Below are positions 3,826 to 59,715 of a DNA stretch of 64,000 bases, one piece after another. Both the position numbers and the translations under genes were made by a program. The DNA is from Halonotius aquaticus (GTDB taxonomy: Archaea > Halobacteriota > Halobacteria > Halobacteriales > Haloferacaceae): assembly GCF_003605575.1 (NCBI RefSeq), contig NZ_QKNY01000018.1:186001-250000 (forward strand). The letters are read 5' to 3'. Each line of letters opens with the position of its first letter. The stretch's first letter is position 1. A model generated the notes under the pieces. It ran no database searches. It had not been told where the DNA came from and saw only the letters and a list, made by a program, of their open reading frames with translations.

Positions 3826-5325
3826 TCAGCCCGATGCACCCATCATATTCACTGTCTGCCGAACCCATCCCGTCGCACCGCTTGGATAGGAATCCGACCG
3901 CTCTTCGGGCTGAACAGTGCCCTCACCATCGACCGCCCGGACGACCACCTCGTGGCTGCCGTCGGGGTCGAACTCGTGTCGCCACTGCCGCCATACGTCG
4001 TCGCCGGGCAGCGGCTCAGAGAGCTCGGCGTCCTCCCACGTCGACCCGCCGTCGGTCGAAACCTCGACACGTTCGATGCCGCGGGTGCCGGCGTAGGCGT
4101 GACCCGCCAGTTCGATCGCGCCGCTGTCGAGCGTGGTGGTGCTCCACAGCTTGGCGACCGTGTTGACCGGGCCGGTGCCGTGCCAGCCGCGCTGTTCCCA
4201 GTAGCCGTCCATTGCCTCGTCGAGTAGTTCGATCTCGCTGAGCCACTTGACGTTCGTTTCCCCCCAGTGACCGGGCACGAGGACGCGCACCGGATGGCCA
4301 TGGGATTGCGGAAGCGGCTGGCCGTTCATCTCCCAAGCGAGGAAGGCATCGTCAAGCGCGTCAACGGGGAACTGAACGAAGTAGTCGTCCTCCGCCCGCA
4401 GCATCGCACAGTCACACTCGCCCTCCGGATCGGCTTCGTCCAACAGCGACTTGATCGGCGTCCCAGTCCAGACGGCGGTATCCATCTTTTCGCCGTTGAG
4501 ATCTTCGCCGACACAGCGCAGCGTCACGTAGCGATGTTCGGTCGGCATCGCGGTCAACTCGTCGTAGCTGACGGTCACGTCGTCGCCGACCTCGCCGGTG
4601 ATCGTCATCGACCAGTCGTCAGCTGGGACTTCGGGATCGAACTCGGCGATGTCAACGTTGTAGAACTCGCCGATCTCGCTGACTAACCCCGGTACGTCGC
4701 CGTCGATATCAAGCGCTTGGGCGTCGGCCTGTTGCAGCCGGTCGGCGACCGCCTCGCTGACCGGCTCGGTGGTACCATCGCCGCCGCCAGCATTGGCGAG
4801 GCGGCCGACACCGGCGGCAACGCCGATAAACGCGGCTGCACTGGCGAGGACGCGCCGCCGGGCAGGGTTGTGCTCGATTGCGTCGCCTGCTTGCACGCCA
4901 AGTGCGGTGAACACCAACACCGGCGCGGCCGCACCGACCGCCAGCGAGGGGTCGGCCGTGATCGCCGCGGTGACACCCCACGCAAGCCCGCCGGCAAGGA
5001 CGATCCCGAGTGTCGACTGCGTGAGTCGGTCGGCGACACGGACGCCGAGTAGGGCAATCGCCCCAAGCAGGCCGACGGCGAGCCCCACTGAGAGAGCGAT
5101 ATGCAGCAGGTGACCCTCATCGCCGATGGTCTCGATGACGAACGCGACGAGTCGGCCGGGAGTGAGCCGAACGACCAGCGCGTCGATCGGCGCAACGATG
5201 AACTGGCGGGTGTAGCCAGCGACCGCATACGAGCCGGCGACGCCGGTGATGCCGGCAAGCAGCGCGACGAGCAGTTCGGTGCTGTGATCAGACACCTGTG
5301 CTCGGAATTGAGTAGAACGATCCAT
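3826..5325 (-). CDS. membrane-anchored molybdopterin oxidoreductase, sulfite-oxidase fold
   Basis: 499 residues. The first 160 residues contain four to five membrane segments. A linker follows, then an oxidoreductase molybdopterin domain (about 215-375) with the molybdenum-ligand Cys271 in YVTLRCVGEDLNG, and substrate/cofactor motifs QSHGHPVRVLVPG and GETNVKWLSEIEL. Residues 385-499 form the immunoglobulin-like dimerisation domain typical of sulfite oxidase, ending GWVRQTVN. A heme domain is absent, so electrons must pass to a separate carrier. The substrate could be sulfite, a sulfoxide or another small oxyanion; the sequence does not decide. The fusion of an N-terminal membrane bundle with the SuoX fold is known in haloarchaea. 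The Asp/Met-repeat lipoprotein gene lies 77 bases upstream on the same strand, so the two may be one transcript. Confidence 0.88.
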   Translation of the reverse strand: MDRSTQFRAQVSDHSTELLVALLAGITGVAGSYAVAGYTRQFIVAPIDALVVRLTPGRLVAFVIETIGDEGHLLHIALSVGLAVGLLGAIALLGVRVADRLTQSTLGIVLAGGLAWGVTAAITADPSLAVGAAAPVLVFTALGVQAGDAIEHNPARRRVLASAAAFIGVAAGVGRLANAGGGDGTTEPVSEAVADRLQQADAQALDIDGDVPGLVSEIGEFYNVDIAEFDPEVPADDWSMTITGEVGDDVTVSYDELTAMPTEHRYVTLRCVGEDLNGEKMDTAVWTGTPIKSLLDEADPEGECDCAMLRAEDDYFVQFPVDALDDAFLAWEMNGQPLPQSHGHPVRVLVPGHWGETNVKWLSEIELLDEAMDGYWEQRGWHGTGPVNTVAKLWSTTTLDSGAIELAGHAYAGTRGIERVEVSTDGGSTWEDAELSEPLPGDDVWRQWRHEFDPDGSHEVVVRAVDGEGTVQPEERSDSYPSGATGWVRQTVNMMGASG

Positions 5326-5402: not shown

Positions 5403-5729
5403 TCAGGTATCGTCGCTCATCGTTTCGTTGTCCATCGTCTCGTTATCCATCGAGCCGTCATCCATTGAGTCGTTCATTGTCTCGTTGTCCATCGATCCAT
5501 CATCCATGGAGCCGTCCATTGTCTCATTGTCCATTGAGCCATCATCCATGGAGCCGTCCATTGAGTCATCATCCATGGAGCCATCCATTGTCTCATTGTC
5601 CATTGAGCCATCGTCAATCGATTCGTCTGACTCCTCATCAGGTGTGCTGTCGGTGCCTGCACAGCCGGCAAGCGCGACCACCGTTGCCGTGCCGGTCGCC
5701 TGCAGCAATCGTCGTCGTGTGCGTGCCAT
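5403..5729 (-). CDS. Asp/Met-repeat lipoprotein
   Basis: 108 residues. A Tat-type signal (MARTRRRLLQATG) ends in a lipobox, LAGCAG, with Cys23. The rest is almost entirely tandem repeats built from DGSMDNETM and DGSMDDDSM units, giving Met every three to five residues within runs of Asp, Asn and Ser. There is no folded domain to recognise. In the DNA the repeat is a near-exact series of CCAT-containing units between 5410 and 5620, so the locus is a coding minisatellite prone to length change. Met and Asp in this density could bind metal ions, but this is inference. It lies upstream of the molybdoenzyme gene in the same direction. Confidence 0.75.
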   Translation of the reverse strand: MARTRRRLLQATGTATVVALAGCAGTDSTPDEESDESIDDGSMDNETMDGSMDDDSMDGSMDDGSMDNETMDGSMDDGSMDNETMNDSMDDGSMDNETMDNETMSDDT

Positions 5730-5847
5730 ACCGTCACCACAGCCAGCCTCTCAAAGGGTATTTTGCAAGGTTCGACCAAACACTGTTCACACTCAGTTCA
5801 AATTTCGGTCGGCATCGAGGGCGCGAAGTTTGAACGGAGTTTGATCG

Positions 5848-6013: not shown

Positions 6014-6289
6014 ATGGAGAAATCCCTGTGGTACCTCTTTGCCGGGAGCCGTGGCGGTGTCAACAGGGTTCGCATCGTGCGGGAGCTCAGCGATCGCCCA
6101 CAGAACGCAAACGAGCTGGCTGAAACACTGGATGTCGACTACAACACGATCACCCACCACATAGAGATGTTACACGAACACGATGTCGTCGAGCCGAGCG
6201 AGCATGACTACGGAAAGCTGTACTTCCTCACCGATCGGTTTGAGCAGTACAGCGAGACGTTTGAACAGATCGCCGCGGAGGTCGAATAG
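6014..6289 (+). CDS. winged-helix regulator, ArsR-like, module 1
   Basis: 91-residue DNA-binding protein. It opens MEKSLWYLFAGSRGGVNRVRIV, then a helix-turn-helix (NELAETLDVDYNTITHHIEML, about residues 34-55) and a wing (GKLYFLTDRF). An in-frame TAA directly precedes ATG 6014, which fixes the start. The membrane-protein gene begins 2 bases after its stop, so both are translated from one mRNA. A clear paralogue with the same SRGG block, YGxxYFLxDR wing and partner arrangement is encoded at 33576-33866. No sensor domain or Cys cluster is visible, so any signal would have to come from the membrane partner or bind the wing region. Confidence 0.85.
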   Translation: MEKSLWYLFAGSRGGVNRVRIVRELSDRPQNANELAETLDVDYNTITHHIEMLHEHDVVEPSEHDYGKLYFLTDRFEQYSETFEQIAAEVE

Positions 6290-6291
6290 CG

Positions 6292-6591
6292 ATGATCGCA
6301 AACATCGCAACCCCAGCCGCGATGGGCGTCGCCGGCATCAACAGCGTGCTGCTGCTGATTCTCGTTTCGGTCTGGGTGCGAAACTATCGGCAGTTCGGCT
6401 CGCCGATGATCCTCGGCCTGCTCGGGTTTAGCAGCGTTTTGCTCATCGAGAATCTGATCGCGCTTGCGTTCTTCTTCAGCAGTATGCAGGCGCTGTACAG
6501 CATGGATCCGCTGGCCGGGCAGGTCGTCTTGGGGATGCGACTGCTGGAGCTGATCGCCATCGGGTTCCTCAGCTACGCAACGCTGCAGTGA
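6292..6591 (+). CDS. three-span membrane protein, partner of module-1 regulator
   Basis: 99 residues, almost entirely hydrophobic. About three transmembrane segments can be drawn: residues 10-28 (AGINSVLLLILVSVWV), 38-60 (ILGLLGFSSVLLIENLIAL) and 75-97. A short basic loop, RNYRQFGS, lies between the first two. It resembles the DUF7521-type haloarchaeal membrane proteins that sit beside ArsR-like winged-helix genes. Translation is coupled to the regulator gene (2-base gap). The role is unknown; an anchoring or signal-sensing partner is inferred from the conserved gene pairing, which recurs at 33161-33866. Confidence 0.75.
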   Translation: MIANIATPAAMGVAGINSVLLLILVSVWVRNYRQFGSPMILGLLGFSSVLLIENLIALAFFFSSMQALYSMDPLAGQVVLGMRLLELIAIGFLSYATLQ

Positions 6592-58152: not shown

Positions 58153-59715
58153 TCAGTCTCGCGGTCGGGTGGCCGACCACGCGAGGGTCCATCCGGCAGC
58201 GAGCAACGCGAGGAGCGCGCCGGCGACACCGAAGCCGGGGATCTGCTCGCTCGTCGCTGATGGTGTGAGCCCGGGGGCGAGCTCTCGCAGTCCGTCGGTC
58301 GTCGGCGCGTGGACGATCCGCACCCGGGTGCCGTCGCGTTCGATCCCGTAGGCCCCGGCGAAGGCATCGTCGTCAAGTTCGTAGATGCCGGGATCGGTTT
58401 CAGTTGCGTTGCGCGCCGTGAGAATGGCTGTATACGCGCGGTGGAACTCGGTGGCGTCATCAGTCGTCTCCCATTCGGTTGTCCAGACGTAGCCGTCGTC
58501 GTCGCCGCGGCGGTAGGGGACGAGCGCGTCGCCAGCCCAGCCGTCGGAGGGTGGCGCACTGTAGGTTCGGCTGTCGTAGTCGCCCTCGGATTCATACAGC
58601 GTCCCCGGATCAACGGTATTGGCTCGGACGGTCGTCGCCTGGTACCAGAACATGACGAAGATCGACGCCTCGCCGGCGACCTCAGTGCCGTTGCGGCCCG
58701 GTTGGGTGTAGCGTTGCCAGCCGGCGGTCGCCGTGGTCGACGGCTCAATGGGCGAGATGTTGAGTGGTTCGCGGTGGATGATCTCGCTGGTCGTCGTCGG
58801 GGGATCGACCATCCGCTCGTCGACACCCGCCCACCCCTCTGTGGTGACGATCTCGTGGACATACCCCGGGCCGTCGGAGTACGGCTGGAGGACGACCGTG
58901 AGGATGCCGCGGTTGCTCGCCCCACCCTCGCCGCTGGTCGGGGACGCTCGCTGACACCGCCAGCGATCATCGTCACAGCGTTGTCTGTACAGATCCTCGA
59001 TGTAGCCTGCTTCGCCCTCATAGAGGCCAGTCACCGCCAGATCGGCGTCCTGTGTTTCGCCCCTGAACCGGGGGCTGGTGAGGTCGTGGCGTTGATCCTG
59101 CAGGGCGTGGGTCAACTCGTGAATCAGCGTCGCCTCGCTGACCCGCGGGGCATCAGGATCGTCGGCGACGATGACGATCTCGTCGCGTGTCGGGCTGTAG
59201 AGCCCGTTGACCGAGCCGGTCAGCGTGTCGGTGATCGCCGTCTGTGTGCTGGTGTTGTCGCCAACGATGAACAGCGCCTTCCAGACCTGATCGTTCCAGC
59301 GGGTGTATCGCCGGTCGGAGCCGTTGGGTGCCAACTCATCGCGGCCGAACGTCTCGCTGTCGACAACCCGGATCGGCACCGATTCCGTGAAGGGTTCGCC
59401 GCGGAGGTACTCCACGCGAGCCATCGAGCGGGCCAGCAGGCGATCGCGTTCAGCGGCGTCCAGCCCGTCGACCTGCGTGACGTTGATCGGATCGTCATGG
59501 CAGATCCCATCGACACAGCCGAGGCTCGTGTTTGCGGACTGCGAGTGGCTAGTCGGGGTTATCGGTGGCGACGGTGGCACCCCGACTGATGTCGCGGGCG
59601 TTGCTGTCGACGCTGCTGTCGCGGGTGCTGCTGTCGCCGCCGCTGCTGGAACGACAGTGCTGATGGCAAAAAAGACAAAGGCGACGACAAGCAGCGATCG
59701 ACCGCGGCGATCCAT
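58153..59715 (-). CDS. Hvo_1808-family surface protein with HExxH and PGF-CTERM
   Basis: 520 residues from ATG 59715 (ATG 59724 adds three). A Sec signal covers about 1-33, followed by an Ala/Thr/Pro-rich spacer. The domain carries LIHELTHALQD (near 197-207), an HExxH zinc site, and GLYEGEAGYIEDL (about 235-247) could provide the third ligand. The C-terminus, QIPGFGVAGALLALLAAGW then basic residues, matches PGF-CTERM, the tag removed by archaeosortase A when proteins are lipid-anchored on the S-layer. The family is known by the Haloferax name Hvo_1808. A cell-surface metallopeptidase is inferred; substrates are unknown. Confidence 0.85.
   Translation of the reverse strand: MDRRGRSLLVVAFVFFAISTVVPAAAATAAPATAASTATPATSVGVPPSPPITPTSHSQSANTSLGCVDGICHDDPINVTQVDGLDAAERDRLLARSMARVEYLRGEPFTESVPIRVVDSETFGRDELAPNGSDRRYTRWNDQVWKALFIVGDNTSTQTAITDTLTGSVNGLYSPTRDEIVIVADDPDAPRVSEATLIHELTHALQDQRHDLTSPRFRGETQDADLAVTGLYEGEAGYIEDLYRQRCDDDRWRCQRASPTSGEGGASNRGILTVVLQPYSDGPGYVHEIVTTEGWAGVDERMVDPPTTTSEIIHREPLNISPIEPSTTATAGWQRYTQPGRNGTEVAGEASIFVMFWYQATTVRANTVDPGTLYESEGDYDSRTYSAPPSDGWAGDALVPYRRGDDDGYVWTTEWETTDDATEFHRAYTAILTARNATETDPGIYELDDDAFAGAYGIERDGTRVRIVHAPTTDGLRELAPGLTPSATSEQIPGFGVAGALLALLAAGWTLAWSATRPRD

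Follow-up and report, generated by a model that had tools for sequence, protein, structure and literature searches.

In the haloarchaeon Halonotius aquaticus, a short open reading frame (ORF) rich in Met-containing repeats lies beside the gene of a membrane molybdoenzyme. We asked whether this ORF encodes a real protein, and whether its product and the enzyme could work together outside the membrane. The analysis started from a 64,000-nt stretch of DNA (contig NZ_QKNY01000018.1, positions 186,001 to 250,000), which we call the window, and in which the locus comprises the following features.

3826..5325, (-) strand: membrane SuoX-fold molybdoenzyme, 499 aa (PF00174, PF03404; conservation; model and PDB neighbours)
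5403..5729, (-) strand: predicted Met-rich Tat lipoprotein gene, 108 aa, ATG start
5742..5763 (approximate), (-) strand: BRE/TATA-like promoter element GAACCTTGCAAAATACCCTTTG of the lipoprotein gene, at about -44
5785..5802, (-) strand: operator-like tandem site TTTGAACTGAGTGTGAAC, upstream of the lipoprotein promoter
5829..5846, (+) strand: second operator-like site TTTGAACGGAGTTTGATC, pointing to the wHTH gene and conserved in H. roseus
6014..6289, (+) strand: winged-helix (wHTH; ArsR/HTH_20-like) protein, proposed regulator (PF12840 above cut-off; adjacency)
6292..6591, (+) strand: small membrane protein, 99 aa, always paired with the wHTH protein; no family above cut-off

The repeat ORF encodes a predicted Met-rich Tat lipoprotein

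The N-terminus of the 108-aa protein, MARTRRRLLQATGTATVVALAGC, carries a twin Arg and a lipobox and is followed by an array of DGSMDNETM-type units with a TRF score of 207-221. The Tat lipoprotein features were identified by direct reading (RRRLL...ALAGC), the TAT model giving 12.8 bits against a cut-off of 16.7. From the first to the last Met the array spans 62 residues and holds 14 Met (23%), with a Met-to-Met spacing of 4-6 throughout; His, Cys, Lys, Arg and aromatic residues are absent from these 62 positions. The initial annotation had described repeats of this type, which are indeed present, and had assigned about 80 of the 108 residues to them; this count was slightly high, since residues of the array types (Asp/Asn/Ser/Thr/Gly) fill positions 38-108, and the actual figure is about 62-71.

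The homologue from Halonotius roseus (L009) is 128 aa long and retains the signal and the lipobox. Over the 24 codons of this region, the two genes differ by seven synonymous and two non-synonymous changes, and the repeats differ in number and order. Because most of the changes in the retained signal are synonymous, whereas the repeats are rearranged and expanded, we conclude from the sequences compared that the repeat ORF (5729..5403, (-) strand) is real and coding. A chance repeat or a non-coding artefact was ruled out by the TRF score together with the H. roseus comparison.

The scans of the own genome were pattern searches. The DNA pattern for Met-x4-Met-x4-Met was found only in this array and at C10:564829-564876, which has Arg/Lys-rich codons between its Mets and is therefore not the same kind of protein. 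Use of P0001 as a whole-genome homology probe was set aside, as its matches were mostly weak and resembled Tat lipoprotein signals or acidic linkers. A second tandem array lies elsewhere in the window (59586-59648; 27-bp unit, 2.2 copies).

The adjoining enzyme is a SuoX-fold protein distinct from MsrP

The enzyme gene is located downstream of the lipoprotein gene on the same strand after a gap of 77 nt, and its product contains an Oxidored_molyb domain (PF00174) and a Mo-co_dimer dimerisation domain (PF03404). The AlphaFold model (mean pLDDT 89.7) shows five long hydrophobic helices, which read as transmembrane (TM) helices, followed by the SuoX fold. An Arg156-Arg157 pair, present in 97-99% of 96 relatives, precedes the last TM helix and reads as an internal Tat-like signal. 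With this topology, and by analogy with other Tat-dependent membrane proteins, the Moco (SuoX-fold) domain would be placed on the outer side.

Cys271, the Mo ligand, does not vary in the enzyme family alignment. By sequence alignment only, the position of SorA Arg55 is taken by Asn223 and that of SorA Tyr236 by Trp381, which is invariant in the 96 relatives; since neither SorA residue is kept, sulfite oxidation becomes less likely. Sulfite dehydrogenases were the best PDB fold neighbours, and MsrP followed later, matching in its catalytic domain only. The enzyme shares the SuoX fold, the Moco Cys and the dimerisation domain with SorA, SorT and SoxC, its best fold matches, but it differs from them at the two SorA positions and in its extra five-TM domain, and the sulfite dehydrogenase models of this group gave 112-119 bits against cut-offs of 420-600. 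With MsrP (YedY) it shares the SuoX fold, Tat export, the lack of a sulfite-binding Arg at the SorA Arg55 position and similar residues around the Moco Cys (FY..., RCV), the stretch FYxxD..DP....DW.L...GeV with LRCV resembling FYEFG..DP....DPWTLKISGEV with RMRCV of MsrP. However, MsrP has neither a TM nor a dimerisation domain and works with the heme b membrane protein MsrQ, and the enzyme scored 56 bits with the MsrP model (NF003767), whose cut-off is 207. A search for MsrQ-like heme ligands in the TM domain of the enzyme family revealed no conserved His, so a heme route of this kind is unsupported. The TM part has no similarity to MsrQ, and MsrQ was not among the recurrent neighbours of the enzyme loci. 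Judged by the family cut-off and by its architecture, the enzyme is not an MsrP. Taking the fold, active-site and Moco-stretch comparisons together, we keep the enzyme apart from both groups and file it, by its sequence features, as a SuoX-fold protein that is neither a canonical sulfite oxidase nor MsrP.

Met-rich proteins recur directly upstream of the enzyme

We searched 146 genomes of the order for the enzyme family and scanned the regions around 120 matches in six frames, calling a protein Met-rich when 40 residues in hydrophilic surroundings contained at least 6 Met. The family was represented by 96 loci, namely the window, five named records and 90 loci from the whole-genome search. In 30 of the 96 loci of this haloarchaeal sample, a Met-rich exported protein was encoded directly upstream on the same strand, and the other 66 had no Met-rich neighbour above the threshold. 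Relative to the extrapolated start of the enzyme, the end of the Met-rich protein fell between about 83 nt before and 44 nt after; this start was misplaced for L096, where the pairing was accepted by inspection. The Met-rich copy in L012 is apparently frameshifted, and L082, with no visible signal in the open frame, is possibly frameshifted in the same way. Only two other Met-rich matches occurred in family loci, one downstream (L087) and one antisense (L107), and none of 30 loci of other SuoX-fold paralogues (L137-L166) had a Met-rich partner.

The paired loci are spread over 14 genera and 10 families with the Met-rich gene always directly upstream, in agreement with the expectation that the pairing would be found in several genera. 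This rules out uniqueness to the present genome, but two thirds of the homologous enzyme loci lack the Met gene, which counts against the proposed enzyme-substrate link. General Met-richness of haloarchaeal surface proteins was also rejected as the cause, because in the fetched loci the Met-rich gene is nearly always found directly before the enzyme. On the enzyme tree, presence and absence of the Met gene require 13 changes, 10 of them forced by supported branches, which points to numerous gains or losses of the link. Of the four Halonotius genomes that encode the enzyme, two have no Met gene, yet carry an operator-like sequence (described below) before the enzyme.

Exported Met-rich proteins also exist without the enzyme. 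In other haloarchaea, Met-rich lipoproteins occur alone with no SuoX enzyme nearby (L236-L238, L243), and Met-rich linkers precede a PGF-like C-terminus (L239, L245, L246, L251, L253). A Met-Gly-rich stretch (MGGDGMGGDGM) in a cytoplasmic-looking protein adjoining archaellum-like genes (L248, 2194-3745) recurs in several genomes. A separate enzyme clade (L112, L113, L117-L120, L127) carries, in place of a Met-rich gene, a gene resembling CcmE (cytochrome c maturation) immediately upstream; the upstream gene of L119 matches Pfam CcmE at 3.5e-11.

The partners share a membrane-anchored Met array

The lipoprotein form with a twin-Arg signal was found in the window, in H. roseus and in one further genus (L050, L051). 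Most other partners have a signal peptide and a C-terminal anchor, either PGF-CTERM or a plain TM segment, and the PGF-CTERM (archaeosortase A) signature was above cut-off in both relatives tested, L062 and L071. The term lipoprotein is therefore true of the window protein but describes a minority form among the partners. Behind the Met-rich part, L055 and L087 carry a Spondin_N-like domain, below the Pfam cut-off in the former and above it in the latter.

Across 28 arrays with 2250 residues, Met makes up 19.4%, Asp 22%, Thr, Ser, Gly and Glu about 11-12% each, Asn 7% and Cys 0.4%, with a single His. The Met spacing is mostly 4-6, short MxM/MxxM motifs are rare, and the Met share stays within 14-32% while other residues drift. 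Different anchors (lipobox, PGF-CTERM) bring such like arrays to the same side of the membrane. Since most partners are anchored C-terminally and not by a lipobox, what stays constant is a Met polymer with almost no His that is exoplasmic, anchored in the membrane and probably flexible.

Such an array might be a neutral low-complexity surface linker that grows by slippage, with Met being incidental. Acidic low-complexity linkers are common in the surface proteins of haloarchaea, some of these linkers being Met-rich and located away from SuoX genes, and the repeat number varies between sister species as the anchors do between lineages. However, the Met content is held despite the drift of other residues, the place beside the enzyme is specific, and such a linker, if neutral, would hardly persist as a separate gene next to a single enzyme family, so we consider this explanation very unlikely.

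The same composition bears on the possibility that thioethers of the Met-rich protein bind Cu(I) or Ag(I) on the cell surface, the enzyme then protecting or serving copper homeostasis. Cu(I) binding by Met-rich stretches is seen in CueO and CusF. Moreover, MsrPQ of E. coli is co-regulated with the Cus copper system and induced together with it (PMC9302797), which would also make copper binding and an oxidant sink compatible functions. Nevertheless, the single His in the 28 arrays, the prevailing 4-6 spacing and a set of recurrent neighbours that includes neither a copper pump nor a multicopper oxidase argue against a role in copper binding, which we regard as improbable.

A tandem operator-like element and a wHTH protein accompany the pair

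An unsupervised motif search returned the BRE/TATA box, not the operator. The BRE/TATA-like element of the lipoprotein gene scored 15.2 against a 99% shuffle level of 10.5, with the window held out of training. The operator was scored separately after this search; it is a tandem 11-bp element with the consensus (TTBGAACGRAR)2, positioned upstream of or running into the BRE/TATA region in many promoters. With at least 18 of 22 positions matching, it was detected in 16 of the 30 Met promoters, where dinucleotide shuffles predicted 0.10, and in 1/13 and 3/53 of the other enzyme-family promoters, while none was found at this threshold in 606 other stretches or in 30 regions before other SuoX genes. 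As the consensus was written after inspection of the promoters scored, the contrast with the controls outweighs the absolute counts. When at most one mismatch was allowed in 22 genomes, all five sites were located at this operon; with three mismatches allowed, many other operator-like sites appear.

Within the own genome, searching the 18-mer with up to two mismatches identified one site beyond the two of the window. It has one mismatch and lies upstream of a glutaredoxin-like gene, 70-87 nt from the ATG; rough arithmetic with equal base frequencies predicts about 0.03 sites in this genome when no more than one mismatch is allowed. The orthologue in a second Halonotius species carries the identical 18-mer, giving two species of this genus in which a glutaredoxin-like gene has the operator (L281 1501-1518, L282, L283). 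The element is absent before the other Halonotius glutaredoxin paralogue (L311), and none was seen before glutaredoxins of other genera. As to the oxidant-linked role that the initial annotation had proposed, the operator common to a glutaredoxin gene supports the redox context, and the interpretation as a whole is partly supported. In another Halonotius sequence (L324, 1500), a two-mismatch site occurs about 120 nt before the gene of a Tat lipoprotein resembling a thioredoxin-fold protein.

The genes for the wHTH and small membrane proteins are divergent in the window; in most of the relatives possessing them, they directly follow the enzyme gene. They accompany 29 of 31 Met loci (L012 counted) and 13 of 65 loci without the Met gene; kinship inflates this association, and the independent pairs, at 4.8 to 1.0, show a trend that is not significant alone. 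The wHTH protein would act at the candidate tandem operator sites. Pairs of this kind were also found beside other exported proteins with no SuoX gene (L257, L258, L269, L267, L268, L271, L273), which suggests a wider family of envelope regulators; some of these exported neighbours resemble Spondin_N proteins by eye. Altogether, the comparisons lend good support to a conserved four-part module of Met polymer, molybdoenzyme, wHTH protein and small membrane protein, with the operator in many of its promoters.

Alternatively, the substrate of the enzyme may be a small molecule (sulfite, another sulfoxide, an N-oxide or a chlorate-like oxyanion), with the Met protein acting independently as a passive shield that is merely co-regulated. 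This would fit the sulfite dehydrogenases as best fold matches, the majority of enzyme loci without a Met-rich partner and the operator-like sites before some partnerless enzyme genes as well. It fits poorly with an adjacency repeated in 14 genera under a common operator, and with Asn223 and the invariant Trp381 at the SorA positions, and we hold it to be rather unlikely.

A possible envelope oxidant-defence operon

We lean slightly towards an envelope oxidant-defence operon, in which the molybdoenzyme would recycle a Met-rich oxidant sink. On the outer side of the membrane, hypohalous acids, singlet oxygen or oxidants of a similar kind would convert Met of the flexible tail to Met sulfoxide, and other envelope proteins would thereby be spared. 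With the Met-rich protein as its presumed substrate, the adjoining molybdoenzyme would reduce the Met sulfoxides and make the polymer available again. Envelope stress would be sensed by the wHTH/small membrane protein pair, which would control the operon. In favour are the pairing, the wHTH association, the operator, the glutaredoxin site, the Met arrays on the same membrane side and the absence of the SorA residues, together with the precedents MrpX-YedYZ and BcrXQP (PMC4623255, PMC8315932). Against it stand the 66 of 96 unpaired loci, a fold nearer to sulfite dehydrogenases than to MsrP, the lack of heme ligands and MsrQ, the wHTH association reduced to a trend after kinship correction, the post hoc consensus and the Met-rich proteins without the enzyme.

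According to these two reports, the bacterial systems MrpX-YedYZ (Azospira) and BcrXQP (Brucella) likewise have an exported Met-rich protein beside a SuoX-fold enzyme and a small regulatory pair, are induced by HOCl and act as a sacrificial sink. The arrangement that characterises MrpX, an exported Met-rich peptide beside a SuoX-fold enzyme, was found at the window locus and its relatives. By analogy, these systems are the closest in working principle, but neither the Met protein nor the enzyme belongs to the corresponding bacterial family. The haloarchaeal Met protein is membrane-anchored (lipobox/PGF-CTERM), acidic and without the Lys of MxKDx. The MXKDX repeat protein (TIGR02953) has in common with it a Met every few residues together with Asp, whereas the haloarchaeal arrays are almost without Lys; the window lipoprotein had no TIGR02953 match, and its relative L062 reached 18.3 bits against a cut-off of 41. 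In contrast to MrpX-MsrPQ, the haloarchaeal enzyme includes a TM domain and a dimerisation domain within its own chain, and MsrQ is lacking. In place of the ECF sigma/anti-sigma pair of the bacteria, the candidates for regulation are the wHTH protein and its small membrane partner. The haloarchaeal operon would thus follow the principle of bacterial MrpX with MsrPQ (YedYZ), using different parts on an acidic, salt-adapted scaffold. That it is an independent, non-homologous counterpart of MrpX-MsrPQ, with the membrane-anchored shield recycled by an MsrQ-free sulfoxide reductase from a so far unassigned membrane SuoX family, under control of the wHTH/small membrane protein pair at an operator that also serves thiol-redox genes, is a tentative but reasonable possibility.

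A haloarchaeal counterpart of MrpX-MsrPQ was not found among the open-licence papers searched, and a 2018 review described archaeal molybdoenzymes of the sulfite oxidase family as widespread, with no known role in Met sulfoxide reduction (PMC6211008). The module links one large archaeal SuoX family to a Met-rich protein at the cell surface, to a candidate regulator and to an operator, which makes the Met sulfoxide question testable in genetically tractable haloarchaea. By comparison with the bacterial systems, the pairing looks like a separately evolved version of the sacrificial-methionine defence against bleach-like oxidants. If this is true, sacrificial methionine coupled to a molybdoenzyme would have arisen in both prokaryotic domains, and cells living in brine under strong light would possess an exoplasmic repair system.
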